Part shown: positions 13,433 to 18,121 of the stretch, piece by piece | How positions within the stretch are numbered: the stretch's first letter is position 1 | Layout: every line of letters begins with the position of its first letter | Source of the DNA: a virus | Direction: 5' to 3' (one strand) | Length of the DNA: 20,216 bases | IMG/VR virus record: IMGVR_UViG_3300046000_004707 | Location: 1-20,216 of that record | The notes under the pieces: generated by a model | What the model was told of the DNA's origin: nothing | Seen by the model: only the letters and a program-made list of their open reading frames with translations | Databases searched by the model: none | Program-made: the position numbers and the translations under genes

Positions 13433-13772
13433 TGTAGGATTCTCTGTAGGTCGGGTCTAACTTCTTGAGTAGAAACATGACCATGACCGGCGTCGTTGGC
13501 GCCATGCTGTACGCCAAAGATTCGAGGAACTCTTGACGCACTTCGCGACCGCGTCGGGTTGCTTCTTCCACCTTCGCAGCGAACACCGGGTCGGCGTCGC
13601 GTGCACGGAGTAGGTCGCGTCGGTTGATGTTGCACACCTTGCACGCGTCCGTCATGAAACCGAGTCGCTCGATGGCTTCCAAGACTTCGGCCTGCTGTAA
13701 CTTGGTTATGATTACAGCCTGTGACTCGCTTTTTACGACGGCCTGCGCACGTGGCTTTCTTGGACCAGTCAC
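13329..13772 (-). CDS. terS: Probable terminase small subunit
   Basis: A 147-aa protein immediately before the large terminase. It has a helix-turn-helix-like region (about 20-60, EVLEAIERLGFMTDACKVCN then INRRDLLRARDADPV), followed by a helix with EEATRRGREVRQEFLESLAY and the phrase MFLLKKLDPTYRESYN, which is characteristic of small-terminase and related phage proteins. It would recognise the packaging site and regulate the large subunit. Start is GTG at 13770-13772, overlapping the holin candidate stop as GTGA. Its last 104 bases overlap the large terminase start in another frame. Confidence 0.8.
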   Translation of the reverse strand: MTGPRKPRAQAVVKSESQAVIITKLQQAEVLEAIERLGFMTDACKVCNINRRDLLRARDADPVFAAKVEEATRRGREVRQEFLESLAYSMAPTTPVMVMFLLKKLDPTYRESYNVHSTTGPNDYVIDLTADDPTPITDVTPKSVLGK

Positions 13773-13945
13773 CGCACCGACTCCGACGTCACGAAGCGAA
13801 GCAACACGTTGACGATGGCAAGCGCATACGCAATCTGCGGTGCAATCTCGTTCAGCTCAGGCCATGCCATAACCGTGGCGAGTATCATGGCGACCAATGA
13901 CAACACGTTAATCCACACCGTCTTTGATTTGTACCAAGGTTTCAT
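13769..13945 (-). CDS. Holin candidate (58 aa, two membrane helices)
   Basis: A 58-aa protein, MKPWYKSKTVWINVLSLVAM and on, with two hydrophobic stretches (about 10-29 and 35-52) joined by a short loop containing PELNEI, and a short C-terminal tail TSESVR. This size and layout, including the basic start KSKTVW, match small phage holins. GGAGG lies eight bases before its ATG. It follows the coiled-coil membrane protein and the amidase, completing a lysis cassette. Its stop overlaps the small-terminase GTG. Pore formation at the end of infection is inferred from topology and context. Confidence 0.75.
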   Translation of the reverse strand: MKPWYKSKTVWINVLSLVAMILATVMAWPELNEIAPQIAYALAIVNVLLRFVTSESVR

Positions 13946-13948
13946 GTC

Positions 13949-14152
13949 TTAGCCTCCACTCATACGGAACCACGAAAGAAACACCAACCACGCACCGCCA
14001 CCGACGAGCATGACCGCGTATACCTGTTGTTCAAGCCGTGCAATACGCTTCTCAAACTCTTTGAAGTTGGCGTCGCCGTTTTCGAGTCGTCGCAGTATCA
14101 TGTCTTGCTTCTCTTCGATGCGCGCCAACTTTGTTTCGACTGACTCGGTCAT
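13949..14152 (-). CDS. XhlA-like coiled-coil membrane protein, holin accessory
   Basis: A 67-aa protein. Residues 5-45 form a heptad-rich coil (SVETKLARIEEKQDMILRRL, then FEKRIARLEQQ), and residues 46-62 are one membrane helix (VYAVMLVGGGAWLVFLSWF). This is the layout of the XhlA haemolysin-like family, found beside holins and endolysins in phages of Gram-positive bacteria. The ATG at 14150-14152 overlaps the amidase stop as ATGA, with GGGGAAAG just before. A longer frame reading into the amidase gene (Arg-rich) is a shadow. It could alternatively anchor the endolysin or serve as holin itself. Confidence 0.75.
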   Translation of the reverse strand: MTESVETKLARIEEKQDMILRRLENGDANFKEFEKRIARLEQQVYAVMLVGGGAWLVFLSWFRMSGG

Positions 14153-14706
14153 ACTTTCCCCTGCTGATATGCTGCGAATTCGTACCGCACCGCGTCGATG
14201 TTTATCGCTGAGCCCGGGCACGACTTCTTCGCCGCTGGGTATTCGCGGTGTCCTTTCAGGGTCGTTGCATCCACTGCGATACCGCGCCAATTCATCAGCG
14301 CCAACGTCGTGGAGCGCACGAGCCGGTGCAGGTCGTCGGGCCATGGTCGCGTGTCGTACTCTCCGACCACTTCGATGCCCCACATCTGCGCGTTGCCAAT
14401 CAACGATGAACAATGAATCCCGGGCACGTTCAATGGGCACATCTGCCAGATGCCGTCAAGCTCCGGATTGCGTCCGCCGATGACGAGGAACAAATGCGGA
14501 CCGCCTCGCCATCCCATCGCCTCGTATCGTTTACTCATGGCGTTCATCGTGATGGCGCCGTTCCATTGGCTTGGCAACGGTCGCCATGTGTGATGCAAGA
14601 CGACGCCACGAGCCCACGGTGCCGTAGCAATGGGCTCATGGCGATGTAGATGCGTGTCAAAGTCTTGCACCGTTGCCCAGTGCCGAAGATCGTACGCATA
14701 CGTCAT
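14149..14706 (-). CDS. N-acetylmuramoyl-L-alanine amidase endolysin (Amidase_2/PGRP fold)
   Basis: A 185-aa zinc enzyme that cuts the bond between MurNAc and the peptide stem. Probable zinc ligands are His38 in GVVLHHTW, His153 in LKGHREYP and Cys163 in KSCPG, the H-H-C triad of this fold. WGIEVVGEY (109-117) corresponds to the conserved central strand with Glu. I start at ATG 14704-14706, which overlaps the previous stop as ATGA; an ATG six codons upstream is an alternative. No separate cell-wall binding domain and no signal peptide are visible, so export would depend on the holin. It is followed by the XhlA-like and holin genes. Confidence 0.92.
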   Translation of the reverse strand: MTYAYDLRHWATVQDFDTHLHRHEPIATAPWARGVVLHHTWRPLPSQWNGAITMNAMSKRYEAMGWRGGPHLFLVIGGRNPELDGIWQMCPLNVPGIHCSSLIGNAQMWGIEVVGEYDTRPWPDDLHRLVRSTTLALMNWRGIAVDATTLKGHREYPAAKKSCPGSAINIDAVRYEFAAYQQGKV

Positions 14707-15029
14707 GAGCGAGGCCCCTGCCATCGTGAAATCTTGTTCATGAACGAAGTACCGTTCTTGCGGTTGACGATAAAGTACAACTCATTGCCGATGACGGTGA
14801 TGTTTCCGTGTGCGTCGTTGTAGAACTGGATAAGTTGCCACTCTGCTGCGAGTGACTTGCGGTACCACAGATGAATACCGAATTGCGGCCACGGCACCCC
14901 GAAGTTGCTCATCGATGTGGCGAACCACTGACCCGCTTTGTCGACCTGTACAAATGTCTGCGTGGCCGTGTACGTTCCGCCGGGTATGCCAAGTTCCGTG
15001 GGGTTTGGAATCGGTGTAATCGTCGTCAT
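14703..15029 (-). CDS. Unknown 108-aa protein between methyltransferase and amidase
   Basis: Product MTTITPIPNPTELGIPGGTY and on. It is not recognised. It has an N-terminal Pro/Thr-rich stretch, then a series of likely beta strands with aromatic residues (FGIHLWYRKSLAAEWQLIQF, then ITVIGNELYFIVNRK), as in small virion or beta-propeller-like repeat proteins. It has no signal peptide or membrane helix. Its start overlaps the methyltransferase stop and its stop overlaps the amidase start, both as ATGA, so it is coupled to the lysis genes. A role as a virion accessory or as a wall-binding partner for the amidase is a guess. Confidence 0.75.
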   Translation of the reverse strand: MTTITPIPNPTELGIPGGTYTATQTFVQVDKAGQWFATSMSNFGVPWPQFGIHLWYRKSLAAEWQLIQFYNDAHGNITVIGNELYFIVNRKNGTSFMNKISRWQGPRS

Positions 15030-16207: not shown

Positions 16208-16383
16208 GCTGCGTACTCTCCTCGTGCCTTCTCCGGAATATCAACGTCATACGACCGAGACACCAACGCAAGGCGCAGTCGCTCGTTTGCCTTGCGTCGT
16301 GCCTTGCGAAATTGCTGTTGGTAGAGCGCATGTTTGCCGCGTCGCGATCTGCATTGTTTGCAGAGACAGTTAAGTACTTTCAT
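16204..16383 (-). CDS. 59-aa basic cysteine-containing protein, unknown
   Basis: A short gene starting MKVLNCLCKQCRSRRGKHAL. It has three cysteines (6, 8, 11), a helix that is highly basic (QQQFRKARRKANERLRLALV) and an acidic-to-neutral end (DVDIPEKARGEYAA). The start lies 14 bases inside the end of the repeated-HTH gene and its stop overlaps the methyltransferase start as ATGA, so context strongly suggests it is translated. Its own ribosome site is poor: AGGAG is about 17 bases upstream. The charge suggests nucleic-acid or ribosome binding. The similar end of many small phage proteins (IPEKARGEYA) is noted only from memory. Confidence 0.65.
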   Translation of the reverse strand: MKVLNCLCKQCRSRRGKHALYQQQFRKARRKANERLRLALVSRSYDVDIPEKARGEYAA

Positions 16384-17077
16384 TGTTGCTCGTTTTTTCT
16401 CTCCTTTGTGATGCGTTTTCGTAGGTGTTCTTGTTACGGTATTTCCAATCGTACCTGCTCAACTCGGGAGACTTCGTTGTGTATCCGTGCTTCCGTGCGT
16501 GTAAATAGACTTGGTCGTCGATGACCATGAGTATGCCGGCGATCTCCTGCGCAGTCCGCTCAGCGTACCACGATGCGTCGGTCGGCCAAGGGATGCGCCG
16601 ATTTTGCTTCTTCATGACGTAGCCGTGCTTGCGTGCCCATCGTTCAGCGTTGCCGTATCCGCAGCCGACTATTTCCGCCATCTGTTTGATTGTGCGTGCT
16701 TCCCAGAACGACCGCGACTCTGGGTAGTTATACTTTGGTGGTCGGTGCGGTTGCCCACCGGGTCGTTTGCCGGTGAACAACGAACGTGCCCAGCGTCCCT
16801 TGCGGTACGTATATCCTCGCTTCTTGATATGCAATGAAGCGGTGTCCACTCTGCACTTCAGCGCCGCAACGATGTCGGACATGGTTCGCTCTTCGTACCA
16901 TGCAGGATCGCTTGGCCAGTCGATGTAGTGCCGCTTTCGTCCAACGAACTCGCGTCGGTACTTGCACACAGTCGTCTTCGATACGCCAAGTTCCAACGCG
17001 ACGGCCTTCGATGTGGCGTCGGACTTAATCAGCGCCATGGTTGCCTCGGTCAATCGCAGTGCTTCCCATGTGGCCAT
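16370..17077 (-). CDS. Multi-HTH DNA-binding-like protein with three internal repeats
   Basis: A 235-aa basic protein. Residues 8-45 form a homeodomain-like HTH (TSKAVALELGVSKTTVCKYR). Three related units follow at about 54-92, 117-156 and 163-202. Each opens with an aromatic pair and RT (WYEERT, FWEART, WYAERT), contains a short helix with A.I, and closes with a basic helix ending in GY (IKKRGY, ARKHGY, ARKHGY). The spacing from the Arg of RT to the Tyr of GY is 25 residues in all three. The start is ATG 17075-17077, with AAAGG upstream; the frame stays open upstream to 17470 inside the Rpf-like gene, but that part is wrong-frame. It could be a transcription regulator or a packaging or DNA-organising protein. 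No nuclease motif is seen. Confidence 0.78.
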   Translation of the reverse strand: MATWEALRLTEATMALIKSDATSKAVALELGVSKTTVCKYRREFVGRKRHYIDWPSDPAWYEERTMSDIVAALKCRVDTASLHIKKRGYTYRKGRWARSLFTGKRPGGQPHRPPKYNYPESRSFWEARTIKQMAEIVGCGYGNAERWARKHGYVMKKQNRRIPWPTDASWYAERTAQEIAGILMVIDDQVYLHARKHGYTTKSPELSRYDWKYRNKNTYENASQRREKTSNNEST

Positions 17078-17088
17078 TACTATGCCTT

Positions 17089-17181
17089 TCAATATCGAAC
17101 AAAGCCAACCAAGAAAGCGAATATCAGAAAACACACCAAATACAAAGCCGTCATCAGCGCAACGACTAAGAAGTGCTTCAT
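17089..17181 (-). CDS. 30-aa membrane peptide
   Basis: Product MKHFLVVALMTALYLVCFLI followed by FAFLVGFVRY. One long hydrophobic helix with a Lys at the start and an Arg near the end. The ATG overlaps the stop of the Rpf-like gene as ATGA, so it is coupled to it. The gene ends 12 bases before the next start. Together with the 32-aa peptide it brackets the Rpf-like enzyme. A holin, pinholin or regulator of lysis is a reasonable but untested guess. It is too short for homology detection, so the case rests on overlap and on hydrophobicity. Confidence 0.6.
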   Translation of the reverse strand: MKHFLVVALMTALYLVCFLIFAFLVGFVRY

Positions 17182-17546
17182 CGCCACACCGCTCGGCCGT
17201 CGTCATCGATGCGCATCCACTGCGACCAGCACGGCTTCGACGCCTTCCAATGCTTCCACCCTCGGCCATCGTTCCACAATCGTTGGAACGTATCGTATTG
17301 ATTCGCTGGGGTGTCGGTGTCGGCGTGCGTCCGCCCCGTGAGCCACTCGTACGTTGCGTCGTTGAACTGGAATAATCCGCCGTCCTGCGTTGCGCTCCGT
17401 GCGTGCCTGCTGTACGTTCCGTAGTTGTGACCGTCGCCACTCTCACACGCCACGATGGCAGCGGCTTCACGGGTCACCTCGAAGGGCACGACGTTGCAGT
17501 CTGAGCCGTTGCAGAGTAGGTAATAAAAGAGAATTATGGTTTCCAT
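17178..17546 (-). CDS. Rpf-like transglycosylase / lysozyme-fold wall hydrolase
   Basis: A 122-aa protein with the small lysozyme-like fold of resuscitation-promoting factors, which cut the glycan chain of peptidoglycan. The segment AAAIVACESGDG gives the catalytic Glu35 next to Cys34. DGGLFQFNDATYEW (55-68) matches the GGLQF...TW core, and DTFQRLW...GWKHWKASKPCW (85-107) matches the closing part, with Cys106 a likely disulfide partner of Cys34. The first 15 residues are hydrophobic (METIILFYYLLC) and may act as a short signal or anchor, but charge is not basic. Ribosome site GGAG nine bases upstream. The enzyme lies between two tiny membrane peptides. Confidence 0.8.
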   Translation of the reverse strand: METIILFYYLLCNGSDCNVVPFEVTREAAAIVACESGDGHNYGTYSRHARSATQDGGLFQFNDATYEWLTGRTHADTDTPANQYDTFQRLWNDGRGWKHWKASKPCWSQWMRIDDDGRAVWR

Positions 17547-17632
17547 CGTTTACGCTCCAATACCATGCCGACCGTCATTGCGATCACCGAAGCAACAAAA
17601 CCAATAATTAGTCCTGCGATGAATTCGAACAT
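17534..17632 (-). CDS. 32-aa membrane peptide
   Basis: Product MFEFIAGLIIGFVASVIAMT followed by VGMVLERKRWKP. One hydrophobic helix (about 4-25) and a strongly basic end, so an N-out, C-in orientation is likely. Ribosome site GAGGAA lies about six bases before the ATG. The first 25 bases overlap the end of the 75-aa gene, and the last 13 overlap the start of the Rpf-like gene. The tidy overlaps and ribosome site support real translation. It may be a small holin or anti-holin; this is inference from size and neighbours. Confidence 0.65.
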   Translation of the reverse strand: MFEFIAGLIIGFVASVIAMTVGMVLERKRWKP

Positions 17633-17835
17633 TGTATTTCCTCTGCTAAGCATTGCAACTCGTCGACAATCGCCGCCATGATTTCGTCAATCGTTGCGGT
17701 CATCTCCCGACCGCGGCATACCACTTCGTCGTCCTGCTCGTCGGCCCGCTCCCGCACCAACATCCACCGCCCGCTTTCGCCGACGTCCACGCGGTACCAG
17801 TGCCGCCCAATCAATCTCGTCCATTGCGTACGCAT
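17608..17835 (-). CDS. 75-aa unknown protein overlapping the nuclease gene tail
   Basis: Product MRTQWTRLIGRHWYRVDVGE and on; it ends in an acidic helix (TIDEIMAAIVDELQCLAEEI). Not recognised. It has a strong GGAGG nine bases before the ATG, and its composition is normal for a folded protein, with a Trp/Tyr/Val-rich strand set (WYRVDVG, RWMLVRER) followed by a helix. It overlaps the VRR-NUC gene by 149 bases in another frame. In the overlap the nuclease frame is Arg/Gly-rich, so this gene is likely the one under selection there. It precedes the 32-aa membrane peptide and may be unrelated to lysis. Confidence 0.7.
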   Translation of the reverse strand: MRTQWTRLIGRHWYRVDVGESGRWMLVRERADEQDDEVVCRGREMTATIDEIMAAIVDELQCLAEEIQCSNSSQD

Positions 17836-18121
17836 TGCGTAGAACCTCCATCACATCGAACACATCGTCAGGCGATCGTAGAACGAGTGCGGGGTACTCC
17901 GTCCAAGCGTCGAAGAATTCCCGTTGTTTGGCGCTGAGTGCGCCGGTTGCGGTCTTCACTTCAACTAAGAATAGCACGCCGCGATAACCGCAGAGCAAAT
18001 CCGGGACACCTCCGCCAGCATTCCCCATGTCCGCAACGATGGCGCCGTGGTAGATCAGCGCCGCCACAATGGCCTTGTGATTTGTGTCTCGGTGCTGTTG
18101 ACGATGGTACCAGTTGGTCAC
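17687..18121 (-). CDS. VRR-NUC domain nuclease
   Basis: A 144-aa protein of the PD-(D/E)xK fold, which in phages acts on replication or recombination intermediates such as branched DNA. The active site is visible: GGGVPDLL with Asp41, then FLVEVKT with Glu54 and Lys56, followed by LSAKQREFFDAW with a conserved Gln. The fold seems complete by about residue 96 (VMEVLRNAY). The final 40 residues are Arg/Gly/Ala-rich (RGRRRKRAVDVGAGAGRRAG) and overlap the 75-aa gene. Start is GTG at 18119-18121, overlapping the previous stop as GTGA. It lies close to the primase-helicase, matching a DNA-metabolism role. Confidence 0.88.
   Translation of the reverse strand: MTNWYHRQQHRDTNHKAIVAALIYHGAIVADMGNAGGGVPDLLCGYRGVLFLVEVKTATGALSAKQREFFDAWTEYPALVLRSPDDVFDVMEVLRNAYAMDEIDWAALVPRGRRRKRAVDVGAGAGRRAGRRSGMPRSGDDRND

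Follow-up and report, generated by a model that had tools for sequence, protein, structure and literature searches.

The three overlapping genes at positions 17,089 to 17,632 of this DNA from an uncultured phage, in which a lysozyme-superfamily enzyme is enclosed by two single-helix membrane peptides (A and B), most likely serve as an accessory to the ordinary lysis machinery and do not act to wake dormant cells. More specifically, we give an even chance to the reading in which the enzyme is a second, glycan-cutting endolysin and A and B are membrane mini-proteins that tune its release or the timing of lysis. The initial annotation had called the trio a second lysis or wall-opening unit; this stands as the best reading, the peptides being coupled to a wall-hydrolase gene, but the trio is not a separate, remote unit: it is distant from the lysis cassette in the window (the whole stretch of 20,216 nucleotides that was analysed) and not in relatives.

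All three genes are on the minus strand. Peptide A (17632-17534; 32 aa, MFEFIAGLIIGFVASVIAMTVGMVLERKRWKP) and peptide B (17181-17089; 30 aa from its ATG, or 32 aa if the GTG at 17187 serves as start, ending in GFVRY) each have one TM helix, and the enzyme between them (17546-17178; 122 aa) is a single domain that is apparently signal-less. The enzyme start lies inside A, the two genes overlapping by 13 nt, and the enzyme stop overlaps B by 4 nt (ATGA). Peptide A has a good Shine-Dalgarno sequence, GCAGAGGAAATACAATG, with AGAGGA at normal spacing, and the enzyme ATG is preceded by a GGAG placed inside the frame of A. Peptide B has no clear ribosome-binding site, and its translation may depend on coupling with that of the enzyme. 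Throughout the 20-kb window, the coding strand holds only four strongly hydrophobic ORFs of 20-70 aa: the two peptides, the holin-like ORF of 58 aa in the lysis cassette, and a fourth that lies within another gene. A further ORF of 75 aa (17608-17835, minus strand) overlaps the start of A and, in another frame, the 3' end of the neighbouring VRR-NUC gene; in most A-carrying relatives, the C-terminal portion of this ORF can be recognised.

The two peptides are genes. Outside the overlaps, pN/pS was 0.316 for A (25 distinct sequences), 0.406 for B (11 distinct sequences) and 0.289 for the enzyme (31 distinct sequences), so that all three frames are under purifying selection among relatives, and none of 300 column shuffles gave a value as low as those of A or B. 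Other frames ranged from 0.9 to 1.9, with the exception of one complementary frame (0.38-0.51), whose third positions fall on the same sites. This selection supports the coding status of A and B. The initial annotation had described two single-helix peptides of 32 and 30 aa overlapping the enzyme gene, to be doubted if synonymous-site constraint were lacking or the frames were broken in relatives; coordinates and selection bear the description out, and beside an intact enzyme the only broken frame is one N-terminally truncated remnant of A (L037/L088). In peptide A, E3, G7xxxG11 and G22 are invariant and the C-terminus is positive. The acidic residue near the N-terminus, the GxxxG pair and the basic C-terminus suggest a helix of N-out/C-in orientation that could pack against other helices, whereas B, with a basic residue at both ends, may be inserted the opposite way, orientation in both cases being read from charge. 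Counting the window, 52 sequences were examined; 37 of them have an A-type peptide and one more has a diverged form of it, while B is present in ~16 sequences, plus a diverged form in L035/L036; in L032, a copy of B is displaced ~0.5 kb downstream. When public viral contigs were scanned with profiles of A and B, all matches (20/20 and 15/15, respectively) fell in contigs that also encode the enzyme, a co-occurrence to which shared ancestry contributes; since many contigs are near copies of each other, raw contig counts are not independent.

The enzyme has full-length relatives in ~50 viral contigs (63-100% identity), plus a few distant ones. Glu35, Asp55 and Cys106 are invariant in 47/47 homologues, Cys34 is conserved in 46/47, and Cys12 and Cys17 in 45/47. 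Its best Pfam match is SLT_3 (PF18896), at E 0.005 for the window protein, or 7.9e-5 in a one-genome search, scores under the curated cut-off, and at E 7.9e-5 for the best of the 47 members; at E up to 1, SLT_3 is matched by 41/47 and SLT by 34/47. A profile built from the 47 homologues matches c-type lysozymes at E ~0.001, also below the curated cut-off. Glu35 and Asp53 are the catalytic pair of human c-type lysozyme, and in the alignment with that protein Glu35 of the enzyme falls on Glu35 and Asp55 on Asp53. Judged from sequence, the enzyme appears to be a peptidoglycan-hydrolase domain that retains its catalytic residues, each of the matches being individually weak. Its N-terminus (M..IILFYYL.C) is short and strongly conserved and has no positive n-region, so it probably belongs to the fold, and the protein would not be self-exported.

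A first AlphaFold model was dropped because it was too poor (pLDDT 46), and only the second, of moderate quality (pLDDT 71, pTM 0.64), was used. Foldseek ranked RpfC first, weakly (best E 0.74), and a second structure comparison placed RpfB, RpfC and RpfE on top, again weakly (Z up to 3.2). Among viral models, an unnamed uncultured-phage protein was closest, at 57% identity, and a hydrolase of a Streptomyces phage came next. The Rpf model PF06737 has no match in the window even at E 10, on which ground Rpf membership by Pfam was rejected; among the homologues it matched 1/47 (E 0.035). The initial label "Rpf-like" can therefore be kept for the fold and the Cys-Glu motif, at weak scores, but not for family membership. 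Two other search results were set aside. A direct PDB sequence search from a shallow alignment returned only noise, mostly ribonucleases, whereas a wider alignment was informative. An NCBIfam Hok-toxin match to the enzyme N-terminus (E 0.086, window 17436-17540) rests on a REAAAIVACESG-like string; it was taken as chance, since its score is far under the cut-off and a scan of another family member did not reproduce it.

The genomic position of the enzyme links it to the lysis cassette. In the window, its upstream neighbour beyond A is a VRR-NUC-type nuclease (17687-18121; Pfam VRR_NUC E 8e-5), and downstream lies an HTH protein (16370-17077), a variable neighbour that is absent from some relatives. 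The lysis cassette, like these genes on the minus strand, comprises conserved g108 (14703-15029), its upstream edge by synteny; an Amidase_2 endolysin (14149-14724; Pfam E 1.7e-10, PHROG endolysin E 1.7e-8); a coiled-coil protein with a C-terminal TM segment (13949-14152), XhlA/holin-like by weak matches; and the 58-aa holin-like protein (13769-13945; PHROG holin E 0.0025). Mapping of 18 window proteins onto relatives gave the order primase - g159 - VRR-NUC - A - enzyme - (B) - variable genes - g108 - amidase - coiled-coil TM protein - TerS - TerL - portal. The trio had been described as lying far from the amidase-holin cassette; this is so in the window, where variable genes (HTH, methyltransferase) fill a gap of 2.45 kb between enzyme and cassette, but not in relatives, where the gap shrinks to ~0.25 kb in L105 and L108 and to 95 nt in L121. 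Members of one divergent group (TerL 54-56% identical) mostly have the enzyme within ~0.3-1.3 kb of g108 and of another gene of Amidase_2 type. The enzyme lies upstream of g108-amidase-(coiled-coil TM)-TerS-TerL across lineages with terminases of only ~50-56% identity, and it is present in 12/12 amidase contigs with enough upstream sequence. Together, synteny and co-occurrence make the enzyme a core neighbour of the lysis cassette. The g108 protein, encoded directly ahead of the amidase and lengthened by a coiled coil in L121 (L121:1484-2128), may have a role of its own in wall binding or as an accessory in lysis. As to the phages themselves, the window amidase has no match among cultured phages, and the best-covering cultured matches of TerL are just ~28% identical. 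The only match in a scan of genome contigs, a weak one in a Treponema MAG, was judged spurious after inspection of the DNA, and thus no prophage or host was found; a scan of a defence-gene library gave no match.

The association of tiny membrane peptides with the enzyme extends beyond A and B. Counting as a tiny TM ORF any strongly hydrophobic frame of 24-60 aa that ends within 30 nt of a gene start or begins within 30 nt of its stop, we found such ORFs abutting the enzyme upstream in 34/49 loci and downstream in 15/49, as against none on either side of primase, g159, the methyltransferase, g108 or TerL. Elsewhere they were one-sided and infrequent (VRR-NUC 5/35, HTH 4/25, amidase 3/32, portal 1/15), and the sole other strong spot was the gap between the coiled-coil TM protein and TerS (18/35), inside the lysis cassette, where the 58-aa holin-like gene of the window is found. 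Outside the main lineage, 3/13 loci have a tiny, other-looking TM peptide beside the enzyme, where ~0.2 would be expected by chance (P 0.001, a simple estimate that ignores relatedness). The trio is not, as first supposed, a fixed three-gene unit: B is missing in most relatives, the enzyme stands without a tiny peptide in the majority of group II, and in ~10 relatives insertions exactly at the A/enzyme junction displace A from the enzyme.

The junction shows several arrangements. L034, L036, L038, L043 and others carry repeated small-gene insertions, some of them tandem tiny TM ORFs, at the overlap CGATGGGAGC, and in L036 and L043 the overlap joint is present twice. This pattern suggests that short homologies mediate recombination at the gene boundary. 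In L010 (L010:4886-5490), an intact enzyme is followed by another tiny TM ORF, after which part of the 3' end of the enzyme gene occurs a second time and runs into a B-like peptide, the footprint of a recent cassette insertion. In L044, L045, L047, L053 and L076, a hydrophobic peptide of a type resembling B (such as ..IAYFALGWSWF) lies upstream of the enzyme and not downstream.

This turnover is the ground of the main rival to a lysis role for A and B, namely that the enzyme is a second endolysin while the peptides are generic mini membrane proteins, for host takeover or exclusion, in a packed insertion hot spot. We regard it as unlikely, if a serious contender. Where cassettes have entered between A and the enzyme in close relatives, A is still 54 nt from VRR-NUC; the insertions recur at exactly this junction; B is absent from most relatives; and A has a weak PHROG match to a moron membrane protein (E 0.076). 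Yet a hot spot of this kind does not readily account for tiny TM ORFs being so much more frequent beside the enzyme than beside other genes, other lineages included, or for A and B never occurring in enzyme-less contigs, even if the latter partly reflects shared ancestry.

Lysis remains our preferred role for the trio. The enzyme would be a minimal muramidase or transglycosylase of lysozyme fold, expressed late, cytoplasmic for want of a signal peptide, active on the glycan and thus complementary to the amidase of the downstream cassette; it would depend on a holin, reaching the wall through a membrane lesion. Peptides A and B, single-helix mini-proteins presumably translated in coupling with the enzyme, would most likely act on the membrane in a holin-like or holin-modulating way, tuning enzyme release or lysis timing. 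A holin is expected to be a small TM protein encoded beside an endolysin, as A and B are; linkage to a lysis cassette is expected of an endolysin, and the enzyme has it through g108-amidase-TM-TerS synteny in divergent groups. Direct support comes from the genes and the selection on them (pN/pS 0.32 and 0.41 for the peptides), from the association of peptides with enzyme, from the invariant E35/D55 together with the c-type lysozyme and SLT_3/SLT profile matches, and from the position of the enzyme ahead of the cassette across lineages; LysF1b offers a precedent (PMC13056207). Against this reading, a holin-like gene is already present in the main cassette, neither peptide matches a lysis family (lysis-class PHROGs gave nothing up to E 10), both fall far short of the 79-145 aa of one-TM holin-like proteins from Gordonia phages (PMC9671378), most group II relatives do without the peptides, A keeps its distance to VRR-NUC even with the enzyme displaced, and the structure model is moderate at best. 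A bolder version, which we hold to be improbable, would make A and B the smallest holin-type proteins known: bare helices of 30-34 aa dedicated to a cysteine-rich lysozyme that is inactive in the cytoplasm and becomes oxidised and active only on release. Peptides and lysozyme would then add a second, exchangeable stage of lysis to an amidase-holin cassette that is itself complete.

The enzyme could instead act early or at entry, in local wall remodelling, as a virion-borne lysozyme, or in superinfection control as a membrane-tethered wall enzyme. It does adjoin replication genes in the window and the main lineage, and the tape measure protein of phage TM4, which bears a peptidoglycan-hydrolase motif according to a work cited in PMC6116114, is a precedent. 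We nevertheless find such a role doubtful, since the enzyme is not near tail genes, adjoins the lysis cassette in L121 and in group II, and has no match to virion-protein families beyond chance for the window protein. It is very unlikely that the enzyme is a phage resuscitation-promoting factor waking dormant host cells: RpfC, RpfB and RpfE do rank first among PDB folds, and the Cys-Glu motif with its downstream Cys recalls Cys15-Glu16-Cys76 of RpfC (PMC4648573), but PF06737 is unmatched, the lysozyme-type Asp55 is present, the fold matches are weak throughout and, unlike a Streptomyces phage relative with a signal-like start, the enzyme has no evident secretion signal, so that the early expression or host reactivation first proposed finds no footing. 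Finally, that A and B are untranslated chance ORFs, short as the frames are, is scarcely credible given their pN/pS, the shuffles, the ribosome-binding site ahead of A and the conserved motifs in both.

In this family of uncultured phages, then, a wall hydrolase is closely flanked by conserved membrane genes of ~30 residues, a size at the lower bound of ordinary gene calling, and mini membrane peptides are rapidly exchanged at a single junction. It also corrects the dormancy reading by identifying the enzyme as a core gene beside the lysis cassette. Should A and B act in lysis, they would set an unusually small lower size limit for holin-like proteins and provide compact models for the study of membrane lesions.

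Searches of the open-access literature on phage-encoded Rpf proteins and on tiny TM peptides beside endolysins did not turn up this arrangement. It shares features with several known systems. The Rpf domains of M. tuberculosis RpfB, RpfC and RpfE are the best-ranked PDB folds (20-29% identity over 58-73 residues), and as in RpfC a cysteine, Cys34, directly precedes the catalytic Glu35, with a partner, Cys106, downstream. Unlike Rpf proteins, the enzyme has no Pfam Rpf match, evident signal or accessory domain, and it has an extra conserved Cys12/Cys17 pair as well as Asp55 in the lysozyme position. It resembles c-type lysozyme (PF00062) in profile (E 0.001) and in the aligned Glu35 and Asp, but its cysteine pattern differs from those of c-type lysozyme and SLT_3 and its scores are below the curated cut-offs. 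With lyZ1 (Caudoviricetes sp. MW202577) and the "hydrolase" of Streptomyces phages such as Jada (gp19), it shares its domain, including an ESGG motif and a Trp-then-Cys C-terminal pattern; those proteins have a membrane or signal-like N-terminal segment in the same chain, whereas the enzyme has none and the tiny membrane peptides are separate genes. Jada gp19 (L078:2578-3267), with an apparent signal segment and a long linker, lies beside tRNA and glycosyltransferase genes and is likely a secreted version of the enzyme domain. Lysis cassettes of Gordonia phages have up to four non-duplicated holin-like genes, including one-TM proteins with long cytoplasmic tails (PMC9671378), and in mycobacteriophages Girr and NBJ the one-TM, N-out/C-in protein LysF1b is a putative holin by genetics (PMC13056207). 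A and B, at 30-34 aa, are almost tail-less by comparison, and no common sequence family was detected. As in those cassettes, however, two single-domain lysins are encoded in separate genes and several small TM proteins show high turnover (PMC9671378), and the topology that charge suggests for A is that of LysF1b (PMC13056207).
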